Positions 6,869 through 47,760 of a stretch of DNA of 64,000 nt are shown in pieces. The position numbers were made by a program, and so were the translations under genes. How positions within the stretch are numbered: position 1 is the first letter of the stretch; every line of letters starts with the position of its first letter. The DNA is from an uncultured Rhizobiaceae group bacterium (lineage in GTDB: Bacteria > Pseudomonadota > Alphaproteobacteria > Rhizobiales > Rhizobiaceae). The notes under the pieces are model-generated. The model made no database searches. It was not told where the DNA came from and saw only the letters and a program-made list of their open reading frames with translations. The stretch is taken from positions 185,132-249,131 of the forward strand of contig CALHBJ010000008.1 of assembly GCA_937930845.1 (NCBI GenBank). Direction: 5' to 3'.

Positions 6869-7202
6869 CGCGGTGCCGCGTCTCGTTTTCTGAGTGAAAA
6901 TGTGCCGCCTGCCGGGGTTGGCCTGCCACGAACATGAGCAGCATCTGGCGCTGCTCGCCTGATTTTCCAAGCCTACAATCTCGCCATTGCCGCATAGTCC
7001 GGCACTTTGGATATTGGGTTTTCCTGCGATCTGTTTTGTAGGTGGCCTGTGAAACTGGCTCGACCTATAGAGACCTATAGAGCGACCTATAGTTCTACAT
7101 ATGGTTCTATTCAGTTGGTGAATTGCGCATTTCCCCTCAACCTGTTCAGCAGTTGAGGATCACAACTACCAAATGCGCCATTCGATCCAACAGGAGGAAG
7201 CC
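6869..7202. other. Intergenic region with three direct repeats upstream of an AraC-family gene
   Basis: No coding sequence is evident. The region contains three copies of GACCTATAG, described separately, and a good Shine-Dalgarno (AGGAGG at about 7191-7196) for the AraC gene at 7203. Confidence 0.6.
7062..7092. promoter_or_regulatory. Three direct repeats of GACCTATAG
   Basis: The 9-mer GACCTATAG occurs at 7062-7070, 7072-7080 and 7084-7092, with start-to-start spacing of 10 and 12 bp, about one helical turn. It lies 110 bp upstream of the AraC-family start. AraC regulators bind direct half-sites on one face of DNA, so an autoregulatory operator is a reasonable inference, not shown. Confidence 0.45.
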
Positions 7203-8180
7203 ATGACTGAGGCACTGAATTCATCGATCTCGCAACACGAGAGATTTTCGATACCAGCAGACCTGCTGCCTTGTGAATCAACGCAAGAGGCCCCTGGCAA
7301 CCTGGATCGCTATCATGCGGGTAAAAGTGTTGGCCGAAAGAACATCAAAGTTCGTCCGTGCCCTACAAAGACCGCTGATGATGTCATCATGTTCCACCGC
7401 TATGAAAATGAAGTCGTTAATCTGGCGCTGGATAAGACAAAAAATTATCTGATTGTCTGCGCCGGCAGAGCGACCTCCAACCTCATGGACACCGCCTTTC
7501 GGTTTGGTGATGTGATCTATGTTTATCGCGACAGCAGCCTGAACGCGATTTCATTCACCGGCAGTTTTTCAGTTTTGGAAATTGGCGACAGCTTTCAGCC
7601 GTCCATCAAGAATTCTCAAAGTGGCGATTGCGAAGATTCAGTAAAAACAGATTACATTTCCTTTACGTCAAGATGTCTTGCAGAGGCGTGTAAATCGCTT
7701 TGGGAATACGATCCGAATGAAATTGCCGAAGCCCGCAACATGATCCTGTCCATGGCGATGATTGGTGTTGTTGAAGCGCAGCGCAACAGAGACGTTTCCA
7801 AGAAAACCAATGATTCCGAACTGCCAAAGTGGAAACTCAAGAAACTGGAAGAATTTGTCCTGGCGAATATCCACCGCAAACTCAGTAATGAAGAGCTGGC
7901 GGCTAAATGCGGATACTCGCCATTCTATTTCAGCCGGATGCTGAAAAATTCCTGTGGCAAAACACTCCATCAATATGTGATTACAAAACGGGTCGAGCAT
8001 GCCTGCGAGATGCTGCAAAATTCAGATGCGTCGATTTCTGCCATCTCATATGATTGCGGCTTTTCATCGCAATCACACATGACGCAAATGTTCAGATCAC
8101 TGATCGGCGATACGCCCAAAAACTATCGCGAATCGAGACTTGATCAGCACATCGACCATCGCGCCCTGGAAGTCGCATAA
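7203..8180 (+). CDS. AraC-family transcriptional regulator
   Basis: A 325-residue regulator. The C-terminal third carries two helix-turn-helix segments: LSNEELAAKCGYSPFYFSRML and the second with AISYDCGFSSQSHMTQMF, then the family's FRSLIGDTPKNYR end. The N-terminal two thirds (effector or dimer domain) has no motif recognised by eye. The start at 7203 follows an ideal AGGAGG; an in-frame ATG at 7173 lacks one. It precedes the nitrogen-oxide/tetrapyrrole region, but its targets are unknown. Two other AraC proteins in this window, at 23.5 and 30.4 kb, have closely similar C-terminal domains. Confidence 0.92.
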   Translation: MTEALNSSISQHERFSIPADLLPCESTQEAPGNLDRYHAGKSVGRKNIKVRPCPTKTADDVIMFHRYENEVVNLALDKTKNYLIVCAGRATSNLMDTAFRFGDVIYVYRDSSLNAISFTGSFSVLEIGDSFQPSIKNSQSGDCEDSVKTDYISFTSRCLAEACKSLWEYDPNEIAEARNMILSMAMIGVVEAQRNRDVSKKTNDSELPKWKLKKLEEFVLANIHRKLSNEELAAKCGYSPFYFSRMLKNSCGKTLHQYVITKRVEHACEMLQNSDASISAISYDCGFSSQSHMTQMFRSLIGDTPKNYRESRLDQHIDHRALEVA

Positions 8181-8817: not shown

Positions 8818-9471
8818 ATGAGCATGAATTACAGTAAGAGAACTTTGATATCTCAGTTAAAGATGCTTTTTGCCGTATGTTTGGTGGCAGGATCGGCGCA
8901 ATTTAGCGCCAGTTCAGCTTCTGAAGATTCCTCCGAGATTGAAATCATATCGGAAATCGACAGCGCCGATGTTAATGAGATCGTCAAGACACCCTATGAT
9001 TTGTACCTGTCTGCCAAAGAGGCTTACACGGCTATCGCCAAGAACCCCTCAATTGTATTGATCGATGTTCGCGACCCAGCCGAGATAACCTTTGTTGGCC
9101 ATCCTGAACCCATGGATAGCAATATTCCATCGGCGCTTATTTCCAGAGATTTCGACCCCAATCGCGGCCTTTATCAAATGACGCCCAATGAGAATTTTGT
9201 GGCTGAGGTCAGCCAGTTCATGGAGCGGTCCAATTTACCCAAATCTCATCCGATCATCGTGGCTTGTCGCGAAGGCATCAGAGCTGCGGCGGCTGCAAAA
9301 CTGTTGCACCGGGCCGGCTTTGAAAATGTCTGGAACCAGATCGAGGGTTTTGAAGGCTCTATTGATTTAGATAACGGCAAGCGCAGCGACAAGGATGGCT
9401 GGGTCAATGCTGATCTGCCATTTAGGTACAAGATTAAGCCGAGCGCGGTATGGCAGCCGCTTGAGAACTGA
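8818..9471 (+). CDS. Exported rhodanese-like sulfurtransferase
   Basis: A 217-residue protein with an N-terminal hydrophobic segment (about 11-35) that looks like a signal peptide, then a rhodanese domain. Domain signs are IDVRDPAEI (about 82-90) and the active-site loop ACREGIRAA with the catalytic cysteine at residue 150. Rhodaneses carry sulfur as a persulfide; exported ones are found with c-type cytochromes and sulfur or nitrogen-oxide metabolism. The site is predicted periplasmic. It stands 105 bp upstream of the AerR-like gene, same strand. Substrate and partners are unknown. Confidence 0.85.
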   Translation: MSMNYSKRTLISQLKMLFAVCLVAGSAQFSASSASEDSSEIEIISEIDSADVNEIVKTPYDLYLSAKEAYTAIAKNPSIVLIDVRDPAEITFVGHPEPMDSNIPSALISRDFDPNRGLYQMTPNENFVAEVSQFMERSNLPKSHPIIVACREGIRAAAAAKLLHRAGFENVWNQIEGFEGSIDLDNGKRSDKDGWVNADLPFRYKIKPSAVWQPLEN

Positions 9472-9576
9472 ATTTCAGGGCGCGTATCGATCCATAATCT
9501 TTCCGTACTCTATTTAAAGCTGAAAGATTTAGACCCGCGATATGGAGATACCTGACCAACAAGGTATCGATTAGAG

Positions 9577-10341
9577 ATGAATGAAAAGATTGACCGATAT
9601 CTATATCAGCGGATCGTCCCCGATCTGCTGAACGGTCGCAAAATCTCATCCATCAATGAAAGCGAGACCCACAACACGCGGTCTGTTAACCGATCTCATA
9701 TCCAGGATTTCTCCCGTTTGGTGATGGACACTCAAACGGAACAGGCAAATGAAATCGTGCAGAACTATCTTGATGCAGGGTTTTCTGCTTGCCAGATTGT
9801 TGAGCAATTATTGTGCGAATGCGCGCATGACCTTGGCGAGAGATGGAGTTTGGATGACATTTCGATTGCTGAAGTGTCATTAGGCATGGTCGCGCTTCAC
9901 AAAGTCTTGCGGGATCTGGATGATAGCCTGTCGATGGAATTGGGCCAGAACTCGCCAGATCAATCGATACTGCTCATCACCCTGCCGCAGGACAATCATC
10001 TGTTTGGCGTTGCCGTGCTGGAAAGCTTTTTTAGAAATAGCGGCTGGCATGTTCGTGTGAAGAATGATCATTCGGCCAGTTCCATACTTGATGAAGTTTC
10101 AACGACTTACTATTCAGCCGTTGGCATCTCCGTGAGCCAAAACCGGCATATTGATTTGTGCCGAAATATGATCACCAAGATCCGCCATCGGTCCAAAAAT
10201 CAAGACTCAAAAATTCTGGTTGGGGGATTTCCCTTCACCCGAGACGACGCTTTAGGCGAAAAAGTTGGCGCTGACATTGTTGCCAATAACGCAATGGCAG
10301 CACTGCGGGCTGCAGACTCTTTTTTGTCACAGACTGCTTGA
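9577..10341 (+). CDS. Cobalamin-binding AerR/PpaA-like regulatory protein
   Basis: A 254-residue protein with an all-helical B12-binding cap (about 40-120; GERWSLDDISIAEVSLG) and a Rossmann-type cobalamin domain holding D139-N-H141-L-F-G, the DxHxxG motif in which the histidine ligates cobalt. AerR (Rhodobacter capsulatus) and PpaA (R. sphaeroides) have this layout and act with CrtJ/PpsR as light- and redox-responsive antirepressors. The next gene, 116 bp downstream on the same strand, is a PpsR/CrtJ homologue, which strongly supports the call. No MerR-type DNA-binding domain is fused, so it is not a LitR/CarH protein. No photosynthesis gene is seen in the window. Confidence 0.82.
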   Translation: MNEKIDRYLYQRIVPDLLNGRKISSINESETHNTRSVNRSHIQDFSRLVMDTQTEQANEIVQNYLDAGFSACQIVEQLLCECAHDLGERWSLDDISIAEVSLGMVALHKVLRDLDDSLSMELGQNSPDQSILLITLPQDNHLFGVAVLESFFRNSGWHVRVKNDHSASSILDEVSTTYYSAVGISVSQNRHIDLCRNMITKIRHRSKNQDSKILVGGFPFTRDDALGEKVGADIVANNAMAALRAADSFLSQTA

Positions 10342-10457
10342 TGCCCCTGGGACTTCAGGTCCAGGAATATTGAGCACCGGAATTGACTACATACTCAACT
10401 CTCATGGGGTGGGCTTTGGCCCACGGCTATCAGGCACTCGAGAAGTGGTAGGACAAA

Positions 10458-11843
10458 ATGGAAATTGTAAGCACCGACACAATCTTACCGGGCGCCGATA
10501 TCGGCTTGCTGAACAATATTTTGGGCACAGCCGCTGATATCATTTTGATAGTAGACCAGGTCGGGACGATAAAAGAGGCAAGATTTCAAGGCGAAAGCCG
10601 TTCAGTTTTTGAAGGCCTTGAATGGGAAGGCAAGAATATCCAAGACGTGGTGTCGGTGGGATGCACAAAGAAGGTCAAACGGTTGTTGCAATTGCCGACC
10701 CTTGAACAGCCGCCACGCACGCTGCAAATCAGCCATCCCAGTGCAAATGATACGGATGTGCCGGTCACCTATCGCGCCACCCAACTCAATGCACAAGGTG
10801 ATCTGGTTCTGTTTGGGCAAAGCGAAGCCAAACTGACCGAAATACAAAACCGCTTGTTCAAGTCTCAAATTACCCTTGATCGCGAAATCAGCGATATTCG
10901 GCGCAGGGATGATATCTATAGAAATATCTTCAAGAAAAGCAGGACGCCTCAACTCATTGCCGAGGTGGAAACTCTGCAAGTTGTGGACTTGAACCGAGAG
11001 GCTAAAAATCTGTTTGGCCCCAAGAGTTCTGAGGATAAAAGACCTGTCATCTTCGAATTGTTTTCCGATGACGACAAGTCAATCCTGCACAAGATATTGC
11101 TGTCCTCGGCGGACAATTCCTTGGGTGCCGTGCCAATTAAACTGGGCGATGGGTCAACCGCTGAACTTCGCACATCCTACCATCTGATGGATGGCAAAAA
11201 TCACGTGCTGTTGGAAATCTTCCACGGAGCCGATACGGCGGCACCGGTGGAGCTTCCCCAAACGAGTGGTGATGTTTCAGATCTCATCGAAGTCATGCCC
11301 GATGCCTATGTTGTGCTGGATGAGGACCGAAAAATTACGGCGGCGAATTTGTTGTTTTACAAGCTGTTCAACATTCCAGATAATCACGATCTGAAATTCC
11401 TCAATCTTGAAACATTGTTTTCCGAGTCTGAGGCGGATGCGGGAGATTTGTTCTCAGACCTGCACCGGTCTGGCGTGGCAAAGCGGGAAGCGGCTGCGGT
11501 GACGACCCTTGGTGGCGCGCAAATCATGGTTGAAATTACCGGCCACAAGTTCATTAATGATCAAACTGCCTGCCTTGGATTGTCTTTTCGCAAGATTGTC
11601 GATTTCGATCATGCTGGCGAGGCATCAGCCACAGATTCAGACTTGCCGGACCAGTGGGTTGAATCTCTTGTTCAGACGATGTCGTTGAAAGAGATCGTGC
11701 GACAAACGACGGATTCCATGGAACGTCTGTGCATAGACCAAGCGCTTAAGCTGACGGGGAACAGGCGTGCATCGGCGGCCAAACTTCTTGGTATAAGCCG
11801 TCAGAATTTATACCTGAAAATGAAGTCCTATTCGAAAACATAG
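10458..11843 (+). CDS. ppsR: PpsR/CrtJ-type PAS-domain transcriptional regulator
   Basis: A 461-residue protein with PAS-like domains (about 15-125, 150-255 and 275-380) and a C-terminal Fis-type helix-turn-helix (about 420-458; GNRRASAAKLLGISRQNLY). Cys425 in MERLCIDQAL sits at the position of the redox-active cysteine of CrtJ (Cys420). PpsR/CrtJ is an aerobic repressor that in phototrophs binds TGT-N12-ACA sites upstream of bch, crt, puc and hem genes. Here it sits beside an AerR-like protein, with hemA 7 kb downstream. No clear TGT-N12-ACA pair was found by eye in the hemA, nirK or P460 upstream regions, so the targets remain open. Confidence 0.85.
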   Translation: MEIVSTDTILPGADIGLLNNILGTAADIILIVDQVGTIKEARFQGESRSVFEGLEWEGKNIQDVVSVGCTKKVKRLLQLPTLEQPPRTLQISHPSANDTDVPVTYRATQLNAQGDLVLFGQSEAKLTEIQNRLFKSQITLDREISDIRRRDDIYRNIFKKSRTPQLIAEVETLQVVDLNREAKNLFGPKSSEDKRPVIFELFSDDDKSILHKILLSSADNSLGAVPIKLGDGSTAELRTSYHLMDGKNHVLLEIFHGADTAAPVELPQTSGDVSDLIEVMPDAYVVLDEDRKITAANLLFYKLFNIPDNHDLKFLNLETLFSESEADAGDLFSDLHRSGVAKREAAAVTTLGGAQIMVEITGHKFINDQTACLGLSFRKIVDFDHAGEASATDSDLPDQWVESLVQTMSLKEIVRQTTDSMERLCIDQALKLTGNRRASAAKLLGISRQNLYLKMKSYSKT

Positions 11844-11881: not shown

Positions 11882-14116
11882 CTATCGTTTAAGGCTGGCC
11901 AAAACGCGGTTTCGGTTTCTTGTCATCGATTTCAACCTGTTGTCGAAACCGGGACGCTCCCGCAGGGCTTTGAATATGGGGGATTTCTTCAACCTGCTGA
12001 GGAAAATCATGTTCCGCCGGTTGGCCTCATCCAGAACTTCAAATGCTTTGTCATAATTGCCGATGATCGAATAATATCCGGCCATGGCGCTGAACTCTTC
12101 GACGATTTTTATGTCGCTAACCGACTTTTTGTCAAAATCCCTGCCAATTCTTTCAATCAGCAATTTCGATTTCGCATCATCTTGCGAGATGAAGAGATCC
12201 AACATGAAGACGACGTCGAGTGTCTGATCAATGGGAATGGCACTTTTACGGGCTGCAACGCTGCTGCTCAGGTCCATTCTGACAAACATTTCGTAGAATT
12301 CCCGGCTTTCGCCCATCAGATAATGAACGTAGGGCGTCGTCCACGAAAAGGGGTCCTGCTTCGTCAATTCGTTTGCGGTGTTGATATCGCCTTTCAAGGC
12401 GGCAACCGTTGCCTTGAGACCGGAATTGCCAATCAGTCCTTCCAATTCATCCAACAAATCGAGATTGTTGTACAAAAGGTAGGTGTTGAACTGCAGATCA
12501 AAACTATCCTTATTCAGCTTCCTTGCTTCGTCTAAATATTTTTGTGCCTCACCATAATTGCCAATGCTCATCTCAAACCTGCCAGCATTGATGAGGGCGC
12601 TGAGATTGTCGGCACTCCAAAGCAGGTTTCGTTTGGTCAGCCGCAGGGCTTCTTTAATGTTACCAAGGGAGAATTGAACCTGAGCGATGTTTAGTACGAT
12701 GTCACTGGAAAGCGGGTTTAGAGAAAGCACTTTTTTGAAGCAGAACAGGGCCTCATACAAATCATAGGTGGTGAAGAGAACTTTTGCCTTCTTGAAATAG
12801 CCCAGGGCAAAATTGGGGTTCTTCTTCACGGCCTTGTCGTAAAGTTTTACAGCTTCATCAGCGTCGGACCGGATTTTGGCCAGATTGCCCTGGGTGATAT
12901 AGGTTTCTGGACTGTCGGGTGAAAGGCTTGATACTTTATCCGCATAAGCGCTCAGATCCCTTATGGCATCTGTCCTGCTTAAACCTGCGACACTGATCGC
13001 GCGATCAATTGCTTCGGAATAATACATATAGCCTGGGGTGAAATTAGGCTCCCTTTTCACCACTTCGGCAAACAAAGTGACGGCTTTTTTCAAATCTTCC
13101 GATTTATTGGAATCCAGTAAAACAAGGCCTTCCTGGTATTTCTGGAATGCAATTTTATCGACCAGAAATTCTGCTTCCTCGAAAGTCGAATTTCCCAGAA
13201 AATTGGCAACTGCAATAGTCACCTTCTTTGCGGTCTCTGATTCAAATATCAGTCGCGATTTATCAGGCGCACCCTGATTGAACGTTTCAGACCAGACGAC
13301 CTTGTCTTCTTTGGTCGAAACAAGATGGGCTTCCACATTATATGCGCCTGATTCAGATGTGACGATCCCATCCAAAAGGTAATCCGCGCCCAAAGCTGTG
13401 GCCAGTCCTTGAGTGGAGAGTTTGGTCTTATCAATCTGGAAGGACGACTGAGCTGATACAACACCCAGGGTTTTAATGCGTGACAATGCGTTGATGGCTT
13501 TGTGGGAGATTGCGCTACCAACCTTTTCGTCCAAATCAACCCCAGTGGTAAATGGCAAGATTGCGACTGTGTAGTTGGAATTCTTCTTTTCCGGCACAAA
13601 TACAATTTTCGGCTTTACCGGTTCGCGATCAAAAAACACATATGCACCGGCCGAAACCATGACCGCGGCAATGGGAACCGCCAGGAATACCGGTTTGAAC
13701 AGAGACCATGTTGCTGATTTCTGCGGCTCCGGGGCACCTAAAACAGGTTGATCAGAGACGACCTCAACATCATTTTCAGGCTCTGGCTCCGGCTCAGCAT
13801 CGGGGACATATTCAACAACTTCGCCGACGAATTTATAGCCCATGTTCGGGAAAGTTTTGATGAGCCGCTGGGACTTGCCATCATCATTGAGCACATTTCT
13901 GGCTGCTCGAATTCGATTGTCGATGACGCTGGGCATGACAATCCTGTCATCCCAAATTTCGCGTTGGATTTCGTCTCTGGTGACAATATTCCCGCTATTA
14001 ACAATCAGCAGTTCGATAAGCCGACATACCTGGGGCTCGACATGGGCCAGCTCGCCGTCGACGAAAAGCTCGCCTCGGTCCACGTCAAATATGAAATTTT
14101 CGAATGTATATTTCAT
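11882..14116 (-). CDS. Membrane-anchored winged-helix regulator with TolB-like and TPR domains
   Basis: A 744-residue protein. Residues about 1-100 form an OmpR/CadC-type winged helix (VEPQVCRLIELL, VIDNRIRAARNVL, MGYKFVGEV). A Pro/Glu-rich linker leads to one membrane segment (about 140-162), a TolB-N-like periplasmic domain (VAILPF, ADYLLDG), then TPR repeats over about 320-600. The DNA-binding part would face the cytoplasm and the TPR part the periplasm, as in CadC-like one-component sensors. It is convergent with ppsR (38 bp between stops). A shorter homologue without TPRs is at 29.3 kb. The signal sensed is unknown. Confidence 0.88.
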   Translation of the reverse strand: MKYTFENFIFDVDRGELFVDGELAHVEPQVCRLIELLIVNSGNIVTRDEIQREIWDDRIVMPSVIDNRIRAARNVLNDDGKSQRLIKTFPNMGYKFVGEVVEYVPDAEPEPEPENDVEVVSDQPVLGAPEPQKSATWSLFKPVFLAVPIAAVMVSAGAYVFFDREPVKPKIVFVPEKKNSNYTVAILPFTTGVDLDEKVGSAISHKAINALSRIKTLGVVSAQSSFQIDKTKLSTQGLATALGADYLLDGIVTSESGAYNVEAHLVSTKEDKVVWSETFNQGAPDKSRLIFESETAKKVTIAVANFLGNSTFEEAEFLVDKIAFQKYQEGLVLLDSNKSEDLKKAVTLFAEVVKREPNFTPGYMYYSEAIDRAISVAGLSRTDAIRDLSAYADKVSSLSPDSPETYITQGNLAKIRSDADEAVKLYDKAVKKNPNFALGYFKKAKVLFTTYDLYEALFCFKKVLSLNPLSSDIVLNIAQVQFSLGNIKEALRLTKRNLLWSADNLSALINAGRFEMSIGNYGEAQKYLDEARKLNKDSFDLQFNTYLLYNNLDLLDELEGLIGNSGLKATVAALKGDINTANELTKQDPFSWTTPYVHYLMGESREFYEMFVRMDLSSSVAARKSAIPIDQTLDVVFMLDLFISQDDAKSKLLIERIGRDFDKKSVSDIKIVEEFSAMAGYYSIIGNYDKAFEVLDEANRRNMIFLSRLKKSPIFKALRERPGFDNRLKSMTRNRNRVLASLKR

Positions 14117-14701
14117 AAAGCCGACTGAATTCTTCCACGGGGTCGTCGAAAGCCTCTATCAATGTCGCGCTCGATCTTTCTCACAAAAACCTTATAATAC
14201 GCGATTAAATAGCACACAATCTAATATTCACCACCCAATCCTCGTAAACAATATATTACGTAAAACATATTTGTCACCTCCCAAACTTAAAATTGAACCC
14301 GCAAATCCCGGCTTGTTTTCGAGGAACGCAAGCTGCGTTCAGTGATCTGCACTGGTTCAAGAAAAAAGCTTTACCCTTCCAAAATTCAGTTTTGACGGCG
14401 GCAAATGCCACCATTGGTAATGCCAGTGCGCCGTGCGTGCCAGCCCGCCCCAAGGCAAAATTAATGTCCCACCACAAAGTCGCTCGAACGCCATGGTGAA
14501 TCCAATTGATATCTGGATACTGCCGGATTTATCGGAATCCCGCCATATCAACCAGCAGGTCAAGTAAACATTAGCCGCAGGAATCTGACACACACGGTGG
14601 TTCCTGATATTATTCACCCGTTTTTTGCCGCGTCATGGGGAAGACTACTGAGCCCCGAACCCGGCCCATTGCGGACCGACCCAATTTTGTAAGGCGAAAT
14701 C
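14117..14701. other. Intergenic region, divergent promoters expected
   Basis: About 585 bp between the winged-helix regulator (leaving leftward) and the P460 gene (leaving rightward). The part at 14180-14300 is AT-rich. No gene or RNA was recognised, and no clear FNR-type TTGAT-N4-ATCAA site was seen. Confidence 0.5.
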
Positions 14702-15283
14702 ATGAGCAAGAATAATTTATTGTGTATGACAACGGCATTGGTCGCGACTGTCGCAGTTTCAATTGTGCTGGTAACCGGCCCAAGCCACAGCCAATCGGCC
14801 AGTGATGGCAATACCGTTAGTTCAACAGGTAACATCAAGCTGCCTGAAGTCGATTTCCGAAAAGAATGGACAGCGCTTGGCGCCTGGGCCGTGGCGGCGG
14901 ATGAAGGTACTGCCGGTTCCAAAGGCATTCACATGGTCTACACGCAACCTGAGACGGTTGATGCCTATCGCAAGACTGGAAAATTTCCTGACGGCGCGAT
15001 CCTGGTCAAAGAATTGCTGGGCGCAACAACCGCGGACATGACCACAGGCACTATCAGCCGGGCCGGTGATATCGAAGGCTGGTTCGTGATGGTCAAGGAT
15101 TCAACCGACAAATTCGAAAAGACCAACCAGCTCTGGGGCAAGGGTTGGGGTTGGGCTTATTTTGACGCCAAAGATCGCGTCAAAACCACCACGGTGAGTT
15201 ACGAGTCCGAATGCCTGGCATGTCATATTCCTGCCAAGGACAATGACTGGATTTATACTGAGGCATATCCCGTCCTCAAGTGA
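14702..15283 (+). CDS. Cytochrome P460-family c-type cytochrome
   Basis: A 193-residue exported haem protein: signal peptide (about 1-31, ending near SHSQ), then a P460 fold with FRKEWTALGAW, HMVYTQPETVDAYRKTG and GWGWAYF, and a C-terminal haem-attachment CLACH. Cytochromes P460 and the related c'-beta proteins oxidise hydroxylamine and/or bind NO in the periplasm. The special lysine-haem cross-link residue cannot be assigned by eye. It lies upstream of msrB, msrA and nirK, all in one direction, which fits a role with nitrogen oxides. A second paralogue is at 37.8 kb. Confidence 0.85.
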   Translation: MSKNNLLCMTTALVATVAVSIVLVTGPSHSQSASDGNTVSSTGNIKLPEVDFRKEWTALGAWAVAADEGTAGSKGIHMVYTQPETVDAYRKTGKFPDGAILVKELLGATTADMTTGTISRAGDIEGWFVMVKDSTDKFEKTNQLWGKGWGWAYFDAKDRVKTTTVSYESECLACHIPAKDNDWIYTEAYPVLK

Positions 15284-15540
15284 GTTCAATCTGCACAACA
15301 CCACGCATTGGCGGGGGCGGTTGAACTAACAACAAGCCCCCGCCCATCGGCCCTGAATTGTTGGATACGCATCAAGACCGCCAAGGCGGATAGCGGCTGT
15401 GTGACTAAAAGATCAAGTTCGCAGGATCACCCGTTCGCCACACATCAGGCAGGGATGCGCCAGGCACTGTTTCGGATCAGCCATTGTCGCGCATGGCGAC
15501 CTCACGCACACCCCTTAAACACCCAAAGAAGGAACATGCT

Positions 15541-15987
15541 GTGACCCAGTACAGGCGCTTAGAAGACACAATCAGCAAGCTTACGCCGGAGCAGTACCGA
15601 GTCACCCAGGAAAATGGGACAGAAGCGCCCGGCACCGGCGAATATCTGGATAATGACGAGCCCGGATTGTATGTGGATATCGTGTCCGGAGAGCCTCTGT
15701 TTGTATCTTCCGACAAATATGAATCCGGCTGCGGATGGCCAAGCTTTACAAAACCTGTTGCCAGAAAATTCGTCTCGGAAGTTCTGGACAAATCACACTC
15801 CATGACCCGTGTGGAGGTTCGCAGCGCCCAGGGTGACAGTCATCTGGGACATGTCTTTACAGACGGTCCAACCGATGCGGGCGGCCTGCGCTATTGCATT
15901 AACTCAGCATCATTGCGCTTTGTGCCGCAAAGCGACATGGAGGCCGAAGGTTACGGCGAATATATCAGCCAGATCGAGGTGGGCTGA
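15541..15987 (+). CDS. msrB: Peptide-methionine (R)-S-oxide reductase
   Basis: A 148-residue MsrB. It repairs the R epimer of methionine sulfoxide in proteins. Signs are [26 protein letters not shown] and the catalytic end [14 protein letters not shown]. The usual CxxC zinc sites are missing: the first position reads [12 protein letters not shown] where zinc-binding forms have a CxxC, so this is a zinc-free type. The GTG at 15541 is preferred since AAGGA lies 6-10 bp upstream; in-frame ATGs exist further up. One base separates it from msrA. No signal peptide with this start, so cytoplasmic. Confidence 0.9.
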
Positions 15988-15988
15988 A

Positions 15989-16540
15989 ATGGCCAGGGAA
16001 AGAGCGATATTCGCAGGTGGCTGTTTTTGGGGCGTGCAGCAACTCATTGATACACTGCCAGGAGTATTGGAAACCAGCGTTGGCTATACGGGCGGCGATG
16101 TTCCCAACGCCACCTATCGCAATCACGGCTCGCACGCCGAAGGTATCGAAATCTGGTTCGACAATGAGCAGACTTCCTACAGAAAGCTGTTGGAATTTTT
16201 CTTTCAGATACATGATCCCACGACTCCGCTTCGCCAGGGTAATGATCACGGCATGTCGTATCGTTCGGGCATTTACCCCGTTGATGAGAACCAGTTTGCC
16301 ATCGCCTTAAATACAATTGCAGATGTGGATGCCTCAGGCCTTTGGCCCGGCAAAGTCGTAACCGAGGTCAAACCGGCTGGTGCGTTCTGGAAAGCTGAAC
16401 CGGAGCATCAGGATTATCTAAAAAAATATCCGCACGGATATACCTGCCACTATGTGCGCCCCGATTGGGTTTTGCCCAAACGAGATGATGCCGATGGTGA
16501 CACGGACATGCACCGTTCAAAACCTGCGATGCAGACATAA
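15989..16540 (+). CDS. msrA: Peptide-methionine (S)-S-oxide reductase
   Basis: A 183-residue MsrA with the catalytic GGCFWG near the N-terminus, SVGYTGG, and the [14 protein letters not shown] substrate-binding region. It reduces the S epimer of methionine sulfoxide. It begins one base after msrB stops, so the two are co-translated. The pair lies between P460 and nirK; methionine oxidation by reactive nitrogen or chlorine species would fit this setting, which is inference. The C-terminal tail after VRPDWVLPK is not conserved. Confidence 0.93.
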
Positions 16541-16715
16541 GAACCTGTTTAGCGGGAATAACGAATTCACCTTACAGCCTGTGTCCCAACCCTTTGGTTG
16601 CAGGCTCTGGTCCACGCGATTTGGGCCGCGCCATCATGTGGCCGGCTCAGTTACAAACCCGGTTGCCATATGAGCGTCCCCTGCTCACGTGCCAGCATAC
16701 AAAGAGGATAGCACA

Positions 16716-18266
16716 ATGGGAAAGTTCAAGATGGACACAGTATCAGTTTGCAAGCCGTTGCTGGCTGCGGTCTTTATGATTGCTGCCAGCGCCGGTGCCG
16801 CTTCGGCACAAGTGGGCGATCCGGATGCAGGCAAGAAAGTGTTTCGAACCTGTGCCGCCTGTCATTCGGTCGCTGAAAGCGGGAAGAGTGGCGTTGGACC
16901 CAATTTGAGAAGCGTATTTGGTCGAGCAGCCGGTTCCCATGAGGGCTATAAATACGGCAAGAGCCTGGCTGAAGCCAATGGCAAGGGGCTGGTTTGGGAT
17001 GAAGAGCAACTGTTTAACTGGCTCAACGGTCCCAAGGACTTTTTGAGGGCATATCTGGACGATCCAAAAGCAAAAAGCAAAATGCCGCTAAAATTGGCCA
17101 ATGAACAAAAACGGCGTGATGTCATTGCGTATCTTAAATCGCTGGGTGGCGACCAGGCGAAAGCAAGTGACGGACAGGCGGAACAGGCAAAAACAGCCGA
17201 GATGTCCCATGGCGACACCCCGTTTGATACGGCGCAAATGAAATCAGCCGATAAGTCGGATGGCACAACCAACCTTGAGCGCGTGCGTCAAAAACTCGTC
17301 AATCCTCCCTTCGTGCCCGAACACGATCAGGTCGCCAAGGGCGGCCCGAAAGTCATCGAAGTTGAATTGGTTGTTGAGGAAAAGAAATGGGTGCTCGATG
17401 GTGACGGTACGCAGATTGTTGCACTGACATTCAACGGCTCCATCCCGGCCCCTTTGATCGTTGCCCATGAGGGTGACTATGTTGAAGTGACGCTGAAGAA
17501 TCCGGCCACCAATGTGATGGAACACAATATCGATCTGCACGCGGCAACCGGCGCATTGGGCGGGGCTGGCGTTACCACCATTAGCCCCGGCGAAGAGGCG
17601 GTTTTGCGGTTTAAAGCAACGAAAACCGGCGTGTTTCTCTATCATTGCGCCCCCGAAGGCTCGATGACGCCCTACCATGTCACCCATGGAATGACCGGCG
17701 CGATTATGATTTTGCCGCGTGACGGGCTCAAGGACGATCAGGGCAAACAGCTGAAATATGATCGTGCATATTATGTTGGTGAAAATGATTTCTATGTTCC
17801 CCGCGACGAGGACGGAAATTTCAAGAAATATGAGACAGCCGGTGAAGACCTGGGCGACTGGATAACCTCCATGAAAACCCTCACACCTTCCCATGTTGTC
17901 TTTAATGGACGGGTTGGTGCATTGACCGGACAAGGCGCCATGAAAGCTAATGTGGGAGAGACGGTTTTGTTCCTCCACGTTCAGGGCAATCGTGATACGC
18001 GGCCTCATCTGATCGGTGGCCATGGCGACTATGTCTGGGAAACCGGCTCATTCGCGTCACCGCCAATGAAGGATCTGGAAACCTGGTTTGTGCGCGGCGG
18101 CTCTGCCGGTGCTGCGCTTTACACTTTTCGCCAGCCTGGTGTGTATGCCTATCTAAATCACAATCTGATTGAGGCCGTTGAACTTGGTGCGGCCGCCCAT
18201 GTGGTGGTTGAGGGCAAATGGAATGATGACCTCATGAAACAGGTTTATATCGGCCCCATTAAGTAG
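16716..18266 (+). CDS. nirK: Copper nitrite reductase with N-terminal cytochrome c domain
   Basis: A 516-residue periplasmic enzyme reducing nitrite to nitric oxide. Residues 1-32 are a signal peptide; about 33-145 form a class I cytochrome c (C46-A-A-C-H50, axial Met123 in SKMPLKL); about 205-516 form the two-cupredoxin NirK core. Copper ligands are visible: type 1 H270, C311, H321, M326; type 2 H275, H310, H482; catalytic D273 and H436. The C311-H321 loop is one residue longer than in Alcaligenes NirK. Known haem fusions are mostly C-terminal, so an N-terminal haem domain is unusual. The start at 16716 has GAGG 8 bp upstream. nirV follows after 14 bp. Confidence 0.95.
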
Positions 18267-18280
18267 GACTGGAATTTCCC

Positions 18281-19012
18281 GTGTTGCAGAAAACCATGCT
18301 GCCGCTGTGTCTTCTGGCGGTGGTCAGTGCCGGAAGCGCTGGCGTCATCTGGGCGAAATCAACGGCGTATTCCCTGTCAGAACAAGACAGACCTCGCTTT
18401 GAGACAGTCAGCCTCCTGGATGGCCGCCAACTGCATGTGGGACGTCATGAAGTAACCATTGGCCAGTGGAATGCCTGTGTTACCGGCGGCGGCTGCGAGC
18501 CGCTGGCCAAGCCGGGCCAATTGAACACGGACCATCCCGTGACCGGGGTGAACTGGTTTGATGTCCAAAATTACCTGGCCTGGTATCAGGCGCAAACCGG
18601 CACCCCGGTACGCCTGCCCAGCCGTCTGGAATGGATGGCACTATCACGCGATCATGCGCCGGTTGAAAAGAAGCCGCTGTTTACCGATCCACGTCTTGCA
18701 TGGGCGGCAAATTATGATCTCACTGCAGGCCCCCGCGACCGCGTGGTAAAACCCGTTGGCACTTTTGGCGTCAACAATGCTGGCTTGTCTGACCTGAAGG
18801 GTAATGTGTGGGAATGGACCGCGACCCAATGCGGTGACGGCGGCGAAGACAATGGTCGCGAAAATTGCCGTTCGGGACGCTATGCGATGGGCGAACATGA
18901 AGCCGTGTTGAGCGATTTCATCCGCGACCCTGGCAATGCCAGTTGTGGTGCGGGTATTCCCCCGGCCAACCTGGGATTCAGGCTGGTTTATTCCTCTCAA
19001 TTTGACAGCTGA
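18281..19012 (+). CDS. nirV: NirV-like formylglycine-generating-enzyme-family protein
   Basis: A 243-residue exported protein of the SUMF1/FGE-sulfatase fold: N-terminal hydrophobic segment (about 5-25), GRHEVTIGQWNACV, HPVTGVNWFDVQNYLAWYQ, RLPSRLEWMAL and the GNVWEWTAT signature, ending with LGFRLVY. NirV is commonly encoded beside nirK and is thought to assist nitrite reductase, but its biochemical role is not settled. It follows nirK by 14 bp on the same strand. The start is a GTG at 18281; the copper-binding cysteines of true FGE are not evident. Confidence 0.87.
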   Translation: MLQKTMLPLCLLAVVSAGSAGVIWAKSTAYSLSEQDRPRFETVSLLDGRQLHVGRHEVTIGQWNACVTGGGCEPLAKPGQLNTDHPVTGVNWFDVQNYLAWYQAQTGTPVRLPSRLEWMALSRDHAPVEKKPLFTDPRLAWAANYDLTAGPRDRVVKPVGTFGVNNAGLSDLKGNVWEWTATQCGDGGEDNGRENCRSGRYAMGEHEAVLSDFIRDPGNASCGAGIPPANLGFRLVYSSQFDS

Positions 19013-19186
19013 ACTGCGCCTTCAACCCAACCATAATTGTTGCGCGCATTTTGGAAGTTTGCACACAACAAGCAGGATTCTGTGATGATTATGGTATTTT
19101 GAAAGAACACCTCCGGTGCCGAACACATAGTTACGGAAGCCGTCGATCGTCGGTCCCGAAAGCTGTGTAACAAGAGGTGATTTCCC

Positions 19187-20404
19187 ATGGATTTTGATAA
19201 TTTCTTCGAGACGGCGCTGACTGGTTTACACGAGGAAGGCAATTACCGCAGCTTTAACGATATCGAACGCCATTGCGGAAACATGCCCCGGGCCAGCCGT
19301 TATTGTTTAGATGGCAAATGCCGCGACATAACTGTCTGGTGTTCCAATGATTATCTTGGCATGGGGCAAAATCCTGCTGTCATAAAAGAAATTCAAGATG
19401 TCACCGAGAGATGTGGTGCCGGCGCCGGTGGTACACGCAACATATCGGGAACCAATCATTACCATGTCCTGTTGGAAGAGCTGCTGGCGGAATTGCATGG
19501 CAAGGAATCGGCCCTTTTGTTCACATCCGGATATGTGTCCAACTGGGCGTCTCTTGGTACGCTTGCTTCAAAAATTCCCGGCCTGATTGTCTATTCCGAC
19601 GAGCTTAACCACGCATCGATGATCGAAGGATTGCGCCATTCAAGATGCGAAAAGCGCATTTGGAAACATAATTCTCCCGATGATCTGAGACAAAAAATGG
19701 CGGCGGATGATCCCAATGCGCCGAAACTGGTTGCTTTTGAAAGCGTCTATTCGATGGATGGCGACATTGCGCCGATTGCCGAGATTTGCGACGTGGCCGA
19801 CGAATTTGGTGCCATGACCTATCTGGATGAGGTCCATGCGGTTGGAATGTATGGTCCCCATGGCGGCGGCATAGCCGAACGTGAAGGCTTGATGGATCGC
19901 ATCACGGTCATTGAAGGAACGCTGGGCAAGGCGTTTGGTATACTTGGCGGCTATATTACCGGCTCAGAGAAATTGTGCGATTTCGTTCGCTCATTTTCTT
20001 CTGGCTTTATTTTTACCACCGCATTGCCGCCGGCCATTGCCGCTGGTGCTGCGGAATCCATCCGGCATCTGATGAACAGCCAGAGCGAGCGGGCACGCCA
20101 TCGAAACCGCGTGGACGAGGTGCGCAGGCAATTGGACAAAGTGGGTATTCCCCACCTGGCCAATCCAAGTCACATCATCCCGGTGATCGTCGGCGATGCC
20201 AAGAAATGCAAATGGATTTCCGACCTCCTGCTTGATCAGTACGGCATCTATGTGCAGCCGATCAATTATCCCACCGTTCCAGTTGGAACCGAGCGATTGC
20301 GAATTACCCCCTCCCCCCTGCATAGCGATGAAGACATACGCCACCTGGTTTCCGCACTAAGCGAGATCTGGTCACAATGTGCCTTGGCGCGCATTGCAGC
20401 TTAA
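19187..20404 (+). CDS. hemA: 5-aminolevulinate synthase
   Basis: A 405-residue PLP enzyme that condenses glycine and succinyl-CoA to 5-aminolevulinate, the first step of tetrapyrrole synthesis in alphaproteobacteria. Motifs: [65 protein letters not shown] and the PLP lysine in EGTLGKAFG. Length is normal. It lies 174 bp after nirV, same direction, with a ribosome-binding site AAGAGGTG. Haem supply for P460 and the cytochrome c-NirK could explain the location, and hemA is a known target of CrtJ and RegA in Rhodobacter. Confidence 0.96.
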
Positions 20405-28735: not shown

Positions 28736-29277
28736 TTTGCAGTTCCCTTCGGTGAATTGAACATGACCAAGTATGGGCAAAGCGGCGACCGGCAGATTTC
28801 AAAATGCCAATTGCTTTGTCAGTATCTTGCTAATTACTCGAGAACATTGAAACCGGCGTCATGTCTGTCGGGTGATGCAATGGGCATCTGTTCAGCGCGA
28901 AACAAAGTTTGGCATTGGCGGATGGCAAACCGGTTTTTGCCTAACCAATAATCCCTGTTTGAGATCAAAGGCAGCATTTGGCCGATGCTTATCTGTCCTG
29001 TCGGGCTGTCCGATACAATCGCTGGTCCGGCAGACCTGTGACAATAAAACGCTTGTCCATACATCTAACCGCAATAATTTGACATTTAAGAAACTTGAAA
29101 GACCAACACGCTGGCTGCTGCTAATTTCAATAAAGTCTTAGTTTTGCGGCAACTTAATTTTGGCCTCACATAAATCTTGTGCAGCGTGTTGGCTGGGTCG
29201 AAATGAACCGGCTTTGTGGGTCGGGAATTCGCTTAGCAATCCTATTAATTAATTGAATCTTGCGGTTGGAGTTTTGT
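28736..29277. other. Divergent intergenic region
   Basis: About 540 bp between the leftward isochorismatase gene and the rightward winged-helix regulator. No gene or RNA was recognised; it presumably holds both promoters. Confidence 0.5.
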
Positions 29278-30276
29278 TTGAACCACGTCGATCAAAACGT
29301 AGCAGACATAAATCAGGCGAAATACATCTTTGATGAATTCGAGTTTGATTGCTTAAAAGGTGAGCTGAGGCATCACGATGAGTTGGTGCGACTTGAGCCA
29401 CAAGTCTGTCAGCTCTTGAACATGTTGATTTCGAAGCATGGCGAGTTTGTTAGCAGGCAGGAAATTCTCGACGAGATCTGGATTGGACGCGCCGTTTCCC
29501 CTCAGGTTGTGGACAATCGCATTCGGGCCGCACGCATGGCGCTGGGTGACGATGGCAAACGACAGCGATATATCAAAACTTACCCAAATCGAGGGTTTCG
29601 GTTTGTGGGCGAAGTTGAGAGCGTCAATCCAGAAAATGTCGCGCATTCCGATCTGACATTTGGTCAGTCCTTCTCGATCGCCCGGCTACTCCGGCGGCGC
29701 GCGATTTTGCTGCCATTCGTTGCTTCTGTTGGTGTGTTAACGGCGTCTTTGATCATTTTTGTCGACCCGCCTATCCTGCGTCCCTCGACCAGCGAATCGA
29801 CAAAAGAGCGTGCCGGCGCAAAACCGGTTGTGGCTGTATTGCCGCTGATTGAAAATCGCGATGACATCGATTCCAAACGATATGGCACACAATTGGCGGG
29901 GGTCATGATTGATACTCTTTCCAGAGTGTCCGACGTTGATGTCATTTCCTCGCTGTCCTCATTTCCGGTGGCCGAACAGTCAACCAATCTCAAGGACGCA
30001 TTGAGCATTCTTCGGGCCGACTTTCTTGTAACAAACATTATCTGGCGGGATGAGGAGGGTGTTAATGCCACCATCCAACTGGTCCGGGCCGATAATGGGG
30101 TGGTGGAATGGTCCAAGAATTTTCCGCAGAACCTGCAAGGCGACAGCGAATCAACGACTGTCAATTCAATTGCCACTGAAGCCCTGATCAATATTTCAAA
30201 CAAATTGGGAATTGAGACCAACGCATTATTTGACCCCTCCAAACCTCTCCTACCGGACTATTTGGCCTTGGATTGA
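29278..30276 (+). CDS. Membrane-anchored winged-helix regulator with TolB-like domain, no TPRs
   Basis: A 332-residue CadC-type protein: winged helix (about 12-110; LEPQVCQLLNMLIS, VVDNRIRAARMAL, GFRFVGEVE), one membrane segment (about 137-156), then a TolB-N-like periplasmic domain (VVAVLPL, ADFLVTNI). It is homologous to the 744-residue regulator at 11.9-14.1 kb but ends before the TPR part. The TTG start at 29278 is chosen because GGAG lies 6 bp upstream. Divergent from the isochorismatase gene, so it may control that group. Convergent with the next AraC. Confidence 0.82.
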   Translation: MNHVDQNVADINQAKYIFDEFEFDCLKGELRHHDELVRLEPQVCQLLNMLISKHGEFVSRQEILDEIWIGRAVSPQVVDNRIRAARMALGDDGKRQRYIKTYPNRGFRFVGEVESVNPENVAHSDLTFGQSFSIARLLRRRAILLPFVASVGVLTASLIIFVDPPILRPSTSESTKERAGAKPVVAVLPLIENRDDIDSKRYGTQLAGVMIDTLSRVSDVDVISSLSSFPVAEQSTNLKDALSILRADFLVTNIIWRDEEGVNATIQLVRADNGVVEWSKNFPQNLQGDSESTTVNSIATEALINISNKLGIETNALFDPSKPLLPDYLALD

Positions 30277-30373
30277 TAAGCTCTGATAAAAAATAAAGGC
30301 CCAATGCTACTTCCTTCAAAAGAACCTTTGAACCAGCTCATCTCTCCCATCGGCGACCTGCACTGCCAAGCAT

Positions 30374-31273
30374 TCAAGAAAGATTGGGGATGACCGGCTG
30401 AGGCACGACCGACGCTGGCATTGCGGGAAAGGACAAATGCTCGTCTCGATAGCATTTGGGTGTCAGGCCAATTGTCTTCTTGAAAATGGCTGTCATGTGG
30501 GACTGGGATGAAAACCCAGTACTCAGGGCGATTTGGCAAATGGGCAGCGATGCCTGTGTCAACATATTGCAGGCAACGGCAATGCGCTTTGCCAAAATAT
30601 ACTGATGGGGCGTCGAACCTGTCCTGGCCTTAAAGAGCCTGCTGAAATGTCCCGGCGACATCTGGCACCGGTCGGCCAGTTCATCCAACAGGATTGTGTC
30701 TTCAATATTTTCCAGGATGTAAGCCTCGACCAACTGCATTTTCCAATGGGGCAATTCCGAGGCGAATCCAGAGTCTGGCGATTGGCATTGGCTCGCAAAT
30801 TCGGCGCGCGCCACGACAGCAAGTGCATGGGCATATTCGCTGATGTCGATATCATCCAATGACAAGTGCCGCTTCGCAGTTATTGCCAGCAGGTGCAGGC
30901 AGGGCGACTTTTGACGGAGAACCGACTCTTTTGATTGAGTGTCTGCGAAGGGCGCGACCAACTCAAATTCATCAGATCCCAACATCTCAATCATCATGAA
31001 ACTGCCGCTGACCACAACTTCGTCAAACCTGCAACCGTCCAGAATGAGGAGGCATTCACCGCTCGCCATCGGGTTTGACAGGATCGATACCTGCACTTCG
31101 CCAAATGCAATGATGAGGAGGTCACACTGCGGTGTGGAGGCGAAGGTCATTGGACCATCATCGTCGGCGCATGCGACCATGCGCGCTCTCATGCCCGACC
31201 CAATGGGTGAAACAGGTGCCTGCCGCAAAGTGCCAAAATGGCGACCCTGGATTTTTTCCACTGGTTGATACAT
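30374..31273 (-). CDS. AraC-family transcriptional regulator
   Basis: A 299-residue regulator with a C-terminal double helix-turn-helix (LDELADRCQMSPGHFSRLF; ICQIALSTGFSSQSHMTAIF; GLTPKCYRDE). The N-terminal half has no motif recognised by eye. The ATG at 31273 is preferred to an upstream TTG. Its C-terminal part is close to those of the AraC proteins at 7.2 and 23.5 kb. It is convergent with the winged-helix regulator. Targets unknown. Confidence 0.9.
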   Translation of the reverse strand: MYQPVEKIQGRHFGTLRQAPVSPIGSGMRARMVACADDDGPMTFASTPQCDLLIIAFGEVQVSILSNPMASGECLLILDGCRFDEVVVSGSFMMIEMLGSDEFELVAPFADTQSKESVLRQKSPCLHLLAITAKRHLSLDDIDISEYAHALAVVARAEFASQCQSPDSGFASELPHWKMQLVEAYILENIEDTILLDELADRCQMSPGHFSRLFKARTGSTPHQYILAKRIAVACNMLTQASLPICQIALSTGFSSQSHMTAIFKKTIGLTPKCYRDEHLSFPAMPASVVPQPVIPNLS

Positions 31274-31459
31274 GGCATGCCCGTCCCAAGTTTGAGAGAT
31301 GCTGTGTGGCAATCTTCATGGAACGATTGGGCAGTCTGCAACTGTGGAAATATCACATTCGCTACATGTGGGCTTTGTAGATATCTGTAGATGGAAAATG
31401 GCGCAAAAGAGCCATTTAGCCACGCCTATTTGCTGGCGATCATCGCGATACAGGAATGT

Positions 31460-44268: not shown

Positions 44269-47200
44269 ATGGCAATAGGTATCTTATCTGCAATCAGAGC
44301 CCGACTTCTCAATAATTCAGATCTTTCTCAAGAAACTGTGCGTGACACCCAGACCGGAGCACTGGCGGTTGGTCAGTCTGCATTCACTGAAAACAGCTTC
44401 ACACGTTCGAACGAAGCCCAGCCCGTTTCAGGCGCTTCAACCCTGCGTTTTGACGAAGAGGTGGAGTTCGAGGTTGAAAACCAAGACGGAGAGGATAGTC
44501 CCGATCAGGTAGGAACCGAACTTGACGATGTGCTAACCGGCAACGCCCAAGATAACGTTCTCAACGGTCTTGGTGGCAACGACCAGCTTTTCGGCCTGGG
44601 TGGCAATGACACGTTGATCGGTGGCGAAGGTGATGACTTTCTCGAAGGTGGTGGCGGAAGCGACATCAATGATGGTGGACCCGGTATTGATACAGCTTCA
44701 TTTGCTGATATCGGCGCGCCTGTGACGGCCAATCTCGCTGAGGGTTTTGCAGATTATCAGGCACCAAACGGCAACCTGATTCAGGACACTTTGACCGACG
44801 TTGAAAACCTGCTCGGCTCTGACAACAACGATACGTTGATCGGCGACGAAGGCGACAACATTATCGAAGGCGGCCGTGGAAGGGACGAAATCGACGGTGC
44901 CGGTGGCAATGATACACTTCTTGGCGGCAGGGGTGGCGATACTCTGATCGGTGGAGAAGGCGATGACTTCCTGCAAGGTGGCGGTGGAAGAGACATCACC
45001 GATGGTGGCGCTGGTTCAGACACCGTTTCATTCGATGACATCGGATCAAGCGTAACCGTCAATCTCTTGGCAGATACCGCTGACTATGTTGCACCCAATG
45101 GCAGGCCGGTTCAGGATTCCGTACTCAATATCGAAAACGTATTGGGCTCTGAGAACATTGACGTCATCATTGGCGACAATGAAGCCAATGTTCTCGATGG
45201 CAATGGCGGCGACGATGTTATCATCGCGCTTGGTGGCGATGACACGCTGATCGGCGGCTTGGGTGACGATGTCCTCGTCGGTGGCGAAGGCATCGATACA
45301 GCCGACTTCTCCGATCAGGACGTTGCAGTTAACGTCACATTGAATGGAGCAGGTGTTGGCACGGCGACCCGCGAAACCGGATTTTCAGTTTCCGTCAACA
45401 ACGCGACAGTTGCGCCGCTTGGATTGAACCCCAACGGTTCCGGTGATTTTTTCACTGAGGCTTTGGAAGGCAACCTCTACTTCAACCTTCACACTTCCGA
45501 CTTCCCAGGTGGCGAGATTCGTGGCCAGCTCGACAATCTTGTCAGCGACGTTACCGAATCCGGTTTCCGCACAATTGTCCTTGACGGACCATTGGATGCT
45601 GCCCAGGAGCCAGGCCCCCTGTCAGACAGTGAAGCCACTGGCACAGGTTCGCTCACAGTTGTTCAAAATCTGGAAACGGGTGAAGTTACCTATTCTTCAG
45701 AATTGTCGGTCTCAGGCCTTTCTGAGGGTGATCTTCAAACTCCGGCTCCCGGCGCTATCAGTGCAATTCACCTGCATAACGCCCCACGTGGTGAGAATGG
45801 CCCCGTTGCCCAGGACACTTTGGTTGATGCTGGCGCAGAAATTGATGCCGCAGAACCAACGGGTGTTTCCGGTCTTGATGTCATCTTTGAAGTTTCCGAA
45901 AGCGATGTTCTCGTTGAAATCGAGAATGTTACCGGCTCCAATGATGGTGACACCATCACGGTTACCGGCAATACCGACAACGTGCTGAACGGCCTTGACG
46001 GCAATGATGTTCTTTCTGCTGGTGGCGGAAATGACACCATCATTGGTGGCGCAGGCAGTGACACTTTGATCGGCGGTCTTGGCGACGACATTCTGGATGG
46101 CGGCGCCGGCAGCGACACGGTGGACTTCTCCGATGCCGATGTGGCGGTCAATGTGACACTGGACGGCAATGGTAACGGTACAGCGACCCGCGAAACCGGG
46201 TTTTCTGTCTCCGTCAACAATGCTCCGGTTGCGCCCCTTGGTTTGAACCCCAACGGTTCGGGCGACTTCGTGACGGAAGCGTTGAATGGCAACCTCTACT
46301 TCAACGTTCACACATCCGACTTCCTGGGTGGTGAAATTCGCGGGCAGCTGGACAGTCTTGTCAGCGATACTACCACCCATGAATACCGCACAATCGTGCT
46401 GGAAGGCACGTTGGACGCTGCCCAGGAACCGGGCCCGCTTTCAGACAGTGAAGCGACCGGCCTTGGTTCTGTTACGATCCTGCAGAATCTGGAGACAGGT
46501 GAGATCACCTATTCCTCAGAATTGTCCGTCACGGGTCTTTCCCAGGCAGACCTGCAAACACCGGCCCCTGGTGTTCTCAGTGCAATTCACCTGCACAACG
46601 CACCTCGCGGTTTCAATGGCCCTGTTGTGCAGGACACATTGGTGGATGCCGGTGCCTTCATCGATGCCAACGACCCCACAGGCGTATCCGGTGCGGACGT
46701 GATCTTTGAAGTTGTTGAAACTGATACGCTTTCCCAGATCGAAAATGTCATCGGTTCCAATGATGGTGATGTGATCACCGCAACCGGTGCGGCCAACAAC
46801 ACCTTCTCAGGTTTGGACGGCAATGACACCCTGCTTGGCGGCGGCGGCAACGATACCCTTCTGGGTGGCGATGGCGACGACTTCCTGCAAGGCGGCGGTG
46901 GCAGCGACATCACCGATGGTGGTGATGGCATTGATACGGCATCCTTTGCCGATATCGGAGCACCGGTTGCAGCCGTTCTGTTGGCTGACACGGCAGTCTA
47001 CAGCGCGCCAAATGGCAATCTGGTTACCGACCAGCTTTTGAACATCGAGAACCTCCTGGGTTCACAGAACAATGATGTGTTGGTTGGTGATTTCAACAAC
47101 AACGAACTGAACGGCGGCGGCGGTAACGATGTTGTCGTTGGACTGAACGGCGAAAACGTCCTCATCGGCGGCGGCGGCAATGACATCCTCATCGGTGGTG

Positions 47201-47715: not shown

Positions 47716-47725
47716 ATCAACTCAG

Positions 47726-47760
47726 CGGGCGGCGGAATTTTCGCCGCCCGTATCTTCTCC
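47726..47760 (+). terminator. Hairpin between the RTX gene and its transporter genes
   Basis: A 9-bp stem CGGGCGGCG/CGCCGCCCG (47726-47734, 47742-47750) with a 7-nt loop, then TATCTTCTCC. It lies 10 bp after the RTX stop. It may act as a partial terminator so that more substrate than transporter is made, or it may stabilise mRNA. Confidence 0.6.

Follow-up and report, generated by a model that had tools for sequence, protein, structure and literature searches.

The window analysed here, a stretch of 64,000 nucleotides, encodes the AerR and PpsR proteins, a known regulator pair in a new setting: the pair is retained, changed and re-housed after the loss of photosynthesis. It occurs outside phototrophs in three genomes, called orphans below, i.e., the host genome (G000), G011 of the same genus, and G061, the Rhizobiaceae-group MAG that contains L040. 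The account that we favour as probable starts from a phototrophic ancestor within the genus, from which the pair descends. The lineage would have lost its photosynthesis gene cluster during a phase of rapid change in the pair, and the pair would have become part of a locus that already comprised genes for an AraC regulator, a CadC/TPR regulator, and a rhodanese that is probably exported, where purifying selection would then have kept it. PpsR would still act as a dimeric DNA-binding regulator that responds to the oxidation or reduction of Cys425, corrinoid-loaded AerR would bind the PpsR Q-linker helix and thereby modulate PpsR, and the genes now controlled by the pair would be those of its own locus, above all cadC. 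The features are collected in Table 1.

Table 1. Positions of the genes and sequence elements discussed, numbered from the first letter of the window
Feature	Position	Strand	Remark
Direct repeat GTTCTA..GTTCTA, GTTCTACATATGGTTCTA	7092..7117	+	5' of araC; almost unchanged in three species, in a stretch with 26/30 columns identical
AraC-family regulator	7203..8180	+	Conserved in block; ORF call starts at 7173, start 7203 by homology
Rhodanese, N-terminal hydrophobic segment, motif CREGIR with Cys150	8818..9471	+	105 bp upstream of aerR, same strand
Inverted repeat GATACCT-N8-AGGTATC	9547..9568	+	Just 5' of aerR; partly conserved (by eye)
AerR/PpaA-like B12-binding protein, 254 aa	9577..10341	+	His141 at the position of His145, the lower axial ligand in R. 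capsulatus AerR
PpsR/CrtJ-like regulator, 461 aa; PAS domains, Q-linker helix, Fis-type HTH with Cys425	10458..11843	+
CadC/ToxR-like regulator: winged HTH, hydrophobic segment at 143-161, TPR repeats	11882..14116	-	Conserved in block
cadC promoter-like site GTGACA-16-TATATT	14244..14277	-	In block conserved in three species
Imperfect PpsR-like element TGACAAATATGTTTTACG	14259-14276	-	Inside cadC promoter-like site
P460-msrB-msrA-nirK-nirV-hemA cluster	14702..20404	+	Not beside AerR-PpsR block in G011

The AerR and PpsR proteins

The two genes are full-length, adjacent, and both on the plus strand, and their reading frames, domains, profile matches, and PDB matches agree with the identification made in the sequence-only reading. 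PpsR matches the PpsR-CrtJ profile TIGR02040 over residues 22-458 (E 9.4e-61, 206 bits) and the PDB entry of PpsR, 4hh2 (E 6.9e-20). Like PpsR/CrtJ of purple bacteria, it has colinear PAS domains, a Q-linker helix, and a C-terminal Fis-type HTH that includes the position of the redox cysteine, shares their clade, and has the aerR gene directly upstream. It differs from them in the genome around it, which lacks photosynthesis markers, in the absence of TGT-N12-ACA near the starts of candidate targets, in the changes of the AerR-contact face given below, and in its score, which falls short of the curated TIGR02040 equivalog cut-off of 275.4, as does the PpsR of the phototroph G017 (262.6). The predicted model is moderate (pLDDT 79.4, pTM 0.43). 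Cys425, which had been equated with the redox cysteine Cys420 of CrtJ, is indeed kept; this position holds Cys in the host, in L040, in L041 and in 33 of the 35 others, and G011 has it as well. The available part of PMC9144470 names six conserved Q-linker residues as the AerR-contact face of PpsR. Four of these are kept in the host (Q130, L133, Q137, and R148) and in G011, and three in L040; E144 is changed to D and Y147 to I in all three, and R151 to K in L040 only.

AerR contains the cap and Rossmann domains of AerR-type B12-binding proteins (B12-binding, 3.2e-11; B12-binding_2, 4e-6). The entry closest to it in the PDB by sequence is AerR 7te2 (2e-11), which is also the top structural match of its predicted model (pLDDT 89.8), and the two share the fold, the B12-binding domains, the lower axial His, the Trp cap, and the gene order. 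In AerR, the lower ligand His145, the upper ligand His10 of the long isoform, and the cap residues W94/F101 are named in the accessible text of PMC9144470. Aligned with 7te2, His141 of the host protein takes the place of His145, and it is invariant in 38/38 aligned AerR sequences, so the B12 histidine is kept as had been claimed. In the cap, Trp90 stands for W94, and Ile97 replaces Phe101; this position is also Ile in G011 and is Phe in L040. In contrast to the antirepressor of known structure, the host protein lacks the N-terminal tail that bears the light-dependent upper-ligand His10. It has no long isoform, since its first His is residue 32 and an in-frame stop lies 8 codons upstream. The AerR proteins of G011 and L040 have N-terminal His residues, which may or may not serve as a ligand. 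The host protein thus resembles the short form of AerR, which is reported in the same accessible text to bind cobalamins irrespective of light. The earlier suggestion that redox and light/B12 sensing could both work fits the residues in its redox and B12 part, where His141 and Cys425 are kept, and is weakened in its light part, where His10 has no counterpart and Phe101 has become Ile97. Judged from these residues, redox and B12 look likelier than light as the input to the pair, because the light-switch histidine has no counterpart.

Absence of photosynthesis genes and rarity of orphan pairs

The host genome (3.76 Mb, 16 contigs) is listed as 100% complete, and neither reaction-centre genes (Photo_RC) nor bchN were found anywhere in it, which speaks against the earlier option that photosynthesis genes lie elsewhere in the genome. 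PpsR is thus not encoded in a phototroph's photosynthesis gene cluster here. The window itself had been described as free of photosynthesis genes, and this holds: a tblastn search (E 1e-8) with 11 reference proteins, encoded in the photosynthesis-cluster region of the relative G012, gave no match within it. Of these references, the one labelled 'bchF?' is bchN, and those labelled bchN and bchB are taken to be bchB and bchH, which leaves the results obtained with them unaffected. A photosynthesis cluster, or a placement of the proteins outside the PpsR/AerR clades, had been named as the outcomes that would contradict the proposed reuse of the pair; Photo_RC and bchN are absent from the genome and both proteins lie within their clades. 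The other two orphans also lack matches to Photo_RC and bchN, i.e., G011, which is listed as 100% complete, and G061, which has no listed completeness or genus and has a PpsR (L040) 47% identical to that of the host.

It is most improbable that the organism has photosynthesis genes which the assembly lacks. The 16 contigs and the genome-wide coverage of two marker families would leave room for such a gap; against it, the host genome and G011, both listed as complete, are alike in lacking Photo_RC and bchN, and in G012 and G013, phototrophs of the genus, ppsR lies less than 4 kb from bchN, the marker that is absent here.

Five genomes of the genus have both Photo_RC and bchN (G007, G008, G010, G012, and G013). 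Among the host genome and 60 relatives, 16/61 encode a full-length PpsR, and all 14 genomes with Photo_RC/pufLM are among these 16, the exceptions being G000 and G011. Full-length here means a TIGR02040 score above 190 bits; at E 0.001 the profile matches 44/61 genomes, with 45.5 as the next score below the 16. In a sample of 385 genomes of the class (own included), PpsR was found in 27 (E 1e-25) and Photo_RC in 25, all among those 27, which leaves G000 and G209 (84% complete). A profile search of genome contigs yielded 565 relatives; the 80 best were retained, and the genomes of 50 of them were checked. Photo_RC is present in 44 of these 50 and absent from six. Five of the six (L044, L086, L087, L088, and L112) were rejected as orphans: they are probably incomplete MAGs of phototrophs, because a bchG homologue directly follows ppsR and further photosynthesis-cluster genes are on four of the five ppsR contigs. 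L040 is the single remaining orphan among the 50. In the genomes sampled, PpsR is almost a marker of phototrophy, and ppsR alone should not serve to call a genome phototrophic.

We found no report of a PpsR-AerR pair retained in a non-phototroph among the open-licence papers listed. According to the accessible text of PMC3679898, two strains near the OM60/NOR5 clade that lack pufLMC also lack ppsR. The part available of PMC3338782 describes a Citromicrobium strain that lost its photosynthesis cluster, without the word ppsR occurring in it, and ppsR is treated as a photosynthesis-cluster gene in the available parts of PMC6052148 and PMC6739100. A close comparison is HP1 (Rru_A0625) of Rhodospirillum rubrum, an AerR-family protein that likewise adjoins ppsR and affects nitrogen fixation and stress genes beyond photosynthesis, according to the available part of PMC10734443. 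HP1 belongs to a phototroph and lacks the B12 motif, whereas the host AerR keeps the motif and photosynthesis is lost. A non-phototrophic clade with AerR-PpsR under selection, together with close phototrophic relatives that have the ordinary pair, offers a test of a switch without its original target. It allows testing how a regulator is rewired after the loss of its pathway and whether B12 sensing by AerR has a use outside photosynthesis.

Descent, selection, and the conserved gene block

In the PpsR tree, the orphans are a single clade, which joins the five same-genus phototroph PpsR proteins (99 SH-aLRT). In the AerR tree, orphans and same-genus phototrophs group with a support of 95 and the orphans lie inside the genus group; in the joint tree of 36 pairs, the grouping has 100/99 and the orphans stand beside the genus phototrophs, which are their sister group (91/80). 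The orphan stem of the joint tree amounts to 2.65 changes per column. The orphan rows were flagged for this long stem and for an unusual amino-acid make-up in the PpsR, AerR, and joint trees, so some contribution of a long-branch effect to the grouping is conceivable; other long rows of the family in the joint tree (L012 and L013) did not attract the orphans. It could be argued that the pair was acquired horizontally from another lineage, as it lies outside any photosynthesis cluster and the other genes of its block also occur in another family (G054). We consider this quite improbable, because AerR and PpsR both group with the same-genus phototroph pairs; a transfer within the genus would be compatible with that grouping.

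Between the host and G011, AerR is 64% and PpsR 66% identical, with pN of 0.21 in both and pS of 0.66 (AerR) and 0.70 (PpsR), while the comparisons with L040 give pN of 0.28-0.32 and pS of 0.66-0.73; the ratios of dN to dS are rough because dS is near saturation. None of the AerR and PpsR frames of the host, G011, and L040 contains a stop codon. The pair is under purifying selection after the long stem, and unconstrained drift would not leave this pattern of pN and pS. The pattern fits a loss of the photosynthesis cluster accompanied by fast change and followed by slower change. That the pair is instead a decaying relic of the lost cluster without a present function is very improbable. The long stem, the lower TIGR02040 family score, and the lack of operator enrichment in orphan genomes would suit such a relic, but no frame is interrupted in any of the three divergent species, pN amounts to about 0.3 to 0.45 of pS while synonymous sites are nearly saturated, the motif residues are kept, and all three orphans have the same gene block.

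This block consists of the AraC, rhodanese, AerR, PpsR, and CadC/TPR genes, which are together in the host, G011, and L040. The first four share one strand in each; cadC lies downstream and convergent in the host and G011, whereas in L040 it lies upstream and has the same orientation as the others. The block rhodanese is probably exported or anchored, as predicted from its sequence. CadC/ToxR-type membrane regulators with TPR domains have a winged HTH, a hydrophobic segment, and a TPR region. The host CadC has all three, and it differs from them in being encoded with AraC, a rhodanese, and, in orphans, AerR-PpsR. The repeat upstream of araC is possibly a regulator site. In G054, a genome of another family without a full-length PpsR or Photo_RC, the rhodanese (55%), CadC/TPR (41%), and AraC (31%) genes are side by side, so the AraC-rhodanese-CadC module exists without the pair. 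The pair thus seems to have joined a pre-existing three-gene module in the orphan clade, an order of events that we infer. CadC matches at E 1e-60 were obtained in 2/297 genomes of the order (own and G054; at most three candidates scored per listed genome), and G011 was not among the matches.

Two observations on the surroundings of the block may be added. A ferredoxin-type reductase gene and a cytochrome b-type gene (by eye) adjoin the block in G011 (L036, 12013-14857) and are absent beside the blocks of the host and L040. At 29260-31312 of the window, a second protein with a CadC-type DNA-binding domain is encoded beside a second AraC regulator, a combination that recalls the CadC and AraC of the block.

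Candidate targets of the pair

The neighbours of the pair are P460, msrBA, nirK-nirV, and hemA, as first described, with the msrBA labels assigned by eye. In G011, the cluster of these genes is conserved on a contig other than that of the AerR-PpsR block, near a CBS-domain gene, which is also found upstream of the host block, and near a second rhodanese (L167, 10031-10627) about 50% identical to the block rhodanese. In G061, the nirK contig begins just before msrB and keeps the gene order through hemA, PAS, MarR, OsmC, ferritin-like (Dps), and AraC; the ppsR contig ends 251 bp past the gene, and the contig ends gave no informative match. In G054, hemA, nirK, nirV, and two P460 genes are kept together. 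Full-length cytochrome-fused NirK was found in G000, G011, G061, G054, and G006 and partial matches in G004 and G008 among 17 genomes searched.

The pair could control this neighbouring cluster, directly or through CadC or AraC, which we regard as unlikely. The cluster begins 2.9 kb downstream in the host genome, cytochrome-fused nirK is present in 3/3 orphan genomes and full-length in only one (G006) of the 13 other same-genus genomes searched, and CrtJ of R. capsulatus is reported in the available part of PMC5362033 to act also on cbb3 oxidase genes. The co-occurrence counts as one event, however, because the orphans are one clade; G054 and G006 have nirK-nirV without PpsR; and block and cluster are on different contigs in G011. 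The scan for TGT-N12-ACA that had been proposed for nirK, hemA, and P460 gave no site within 900 bases upstream of any of them in the window, and no conserved PpsR-type site precedes msrB or hemA in the three orphan species. Hence nirK, P460, and hemA are unsupported as direct PpsR targets. The idea that the pair was reused for nitrite reduction or haem supply therefore survives as reuse, in keeping with the conserved block and purifying selection, but not in its direct targets; since orphan PpsR and nirK co-occur in the clade, an indirect link is possible.

The region at 14702-38520 of the window holds likely oxidative/nitrosative stress genes, i.e., two P460 genes, msrBA, nirK-nirV, and 5-aminolevulinate synthase, along with genes for a PAS protein, MarR, OsmC, ferritin-like (Dps), AraC, cupins including the ChrR type, and GST; their order is partly conserved in G061 and partly in G054.

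TGT-N12-ACA occurs seven times in the window against 13.8 expected. In the genus phototrophs G012 and G013, aerR and the bchG homologue are closely preceded by such sites, which suggests that the motif holds for the genus. The extended operator TGTCNA-N6-TNGACA has 9, 5, 7, and 7 sites in the phototrophs G012, G013, G010, and G008 (controls 4, 3, 2, and 3) and is not enriched in the orphans G000, G011, and G061, with 2, 3, and 1 sites (controls 4, 4, and 4). The phototroph excess is modest, because counts vary in genomes without full-length PpsR, with 2 (control 4) in G001, 5 (1) in G002, 6 (3) in G003, 1 (0) in G004, 3 (5) in G006, and 6 (5) in G009.

The locus itself and cadC are the best candidates for targets. 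Eight orthologous promoter regions were compared in the three orphan species (cadC, araC, rhodanese, aerR, ppsR, msrB, hemA, and the PAS gene), and a conserved positive PpsR-type score was obtained only at cadC, with a mean of 8.5 and a next best of -1.7, for a scoring motif of 12 sites hand-chosen from phototroph hits and with cadC picked out of the eight regions. Column shuffles reached the cadC score in 0/300 cases and those of the other seven regions in 128 to 284 of 300. The conserved segment reads TGACAAAT-N3-TTTTACG. The element lacks both defining triplets, with TGA and ACG instead of TGT and ACA, and its likeness to a PpsR site may partly reflect the promoter itself, because it overlaps the -35 hexamer, which is itself like half a PpsR site. 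We regard it as a candidate PpsR site on the strength of this sequence likeness. As a regulon-wide motif the element was rejected: exact matches in G000, G011, and G061 occur only at cadC, and the other hits carry three mismatches and are no commoner than those of a reversed-pattern control.

Extending the favoured account of regulation of the own locus, we tentatively propose, as a possible but rather doubtful elaboration, that the switch was rewired onto the membrane CadC/TPR regulator and the exported rhodanese. It would signal the redox and corrinoid status of the cytoplasm to an envelope programme for stress from sulphur or nitrogen oxides, and the cadC operator would be a PpsR site whose sequence has diverged from TGT-N12-ACA.

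Across the window, promoter-like sites numbered 16 versus 10.2, terminator-like sites were no more frequent than in shuffles, and a search with Rfam at gathering scores gave no riboswitch. A long repeat-rich protein (RTX-like by eye) is encoded at 44269-50924, followed by an apparent type I secretion ABC transporter and a membrane fusion protein (by eye), and the minus strand carries a Small SRP RNA at 707-804.
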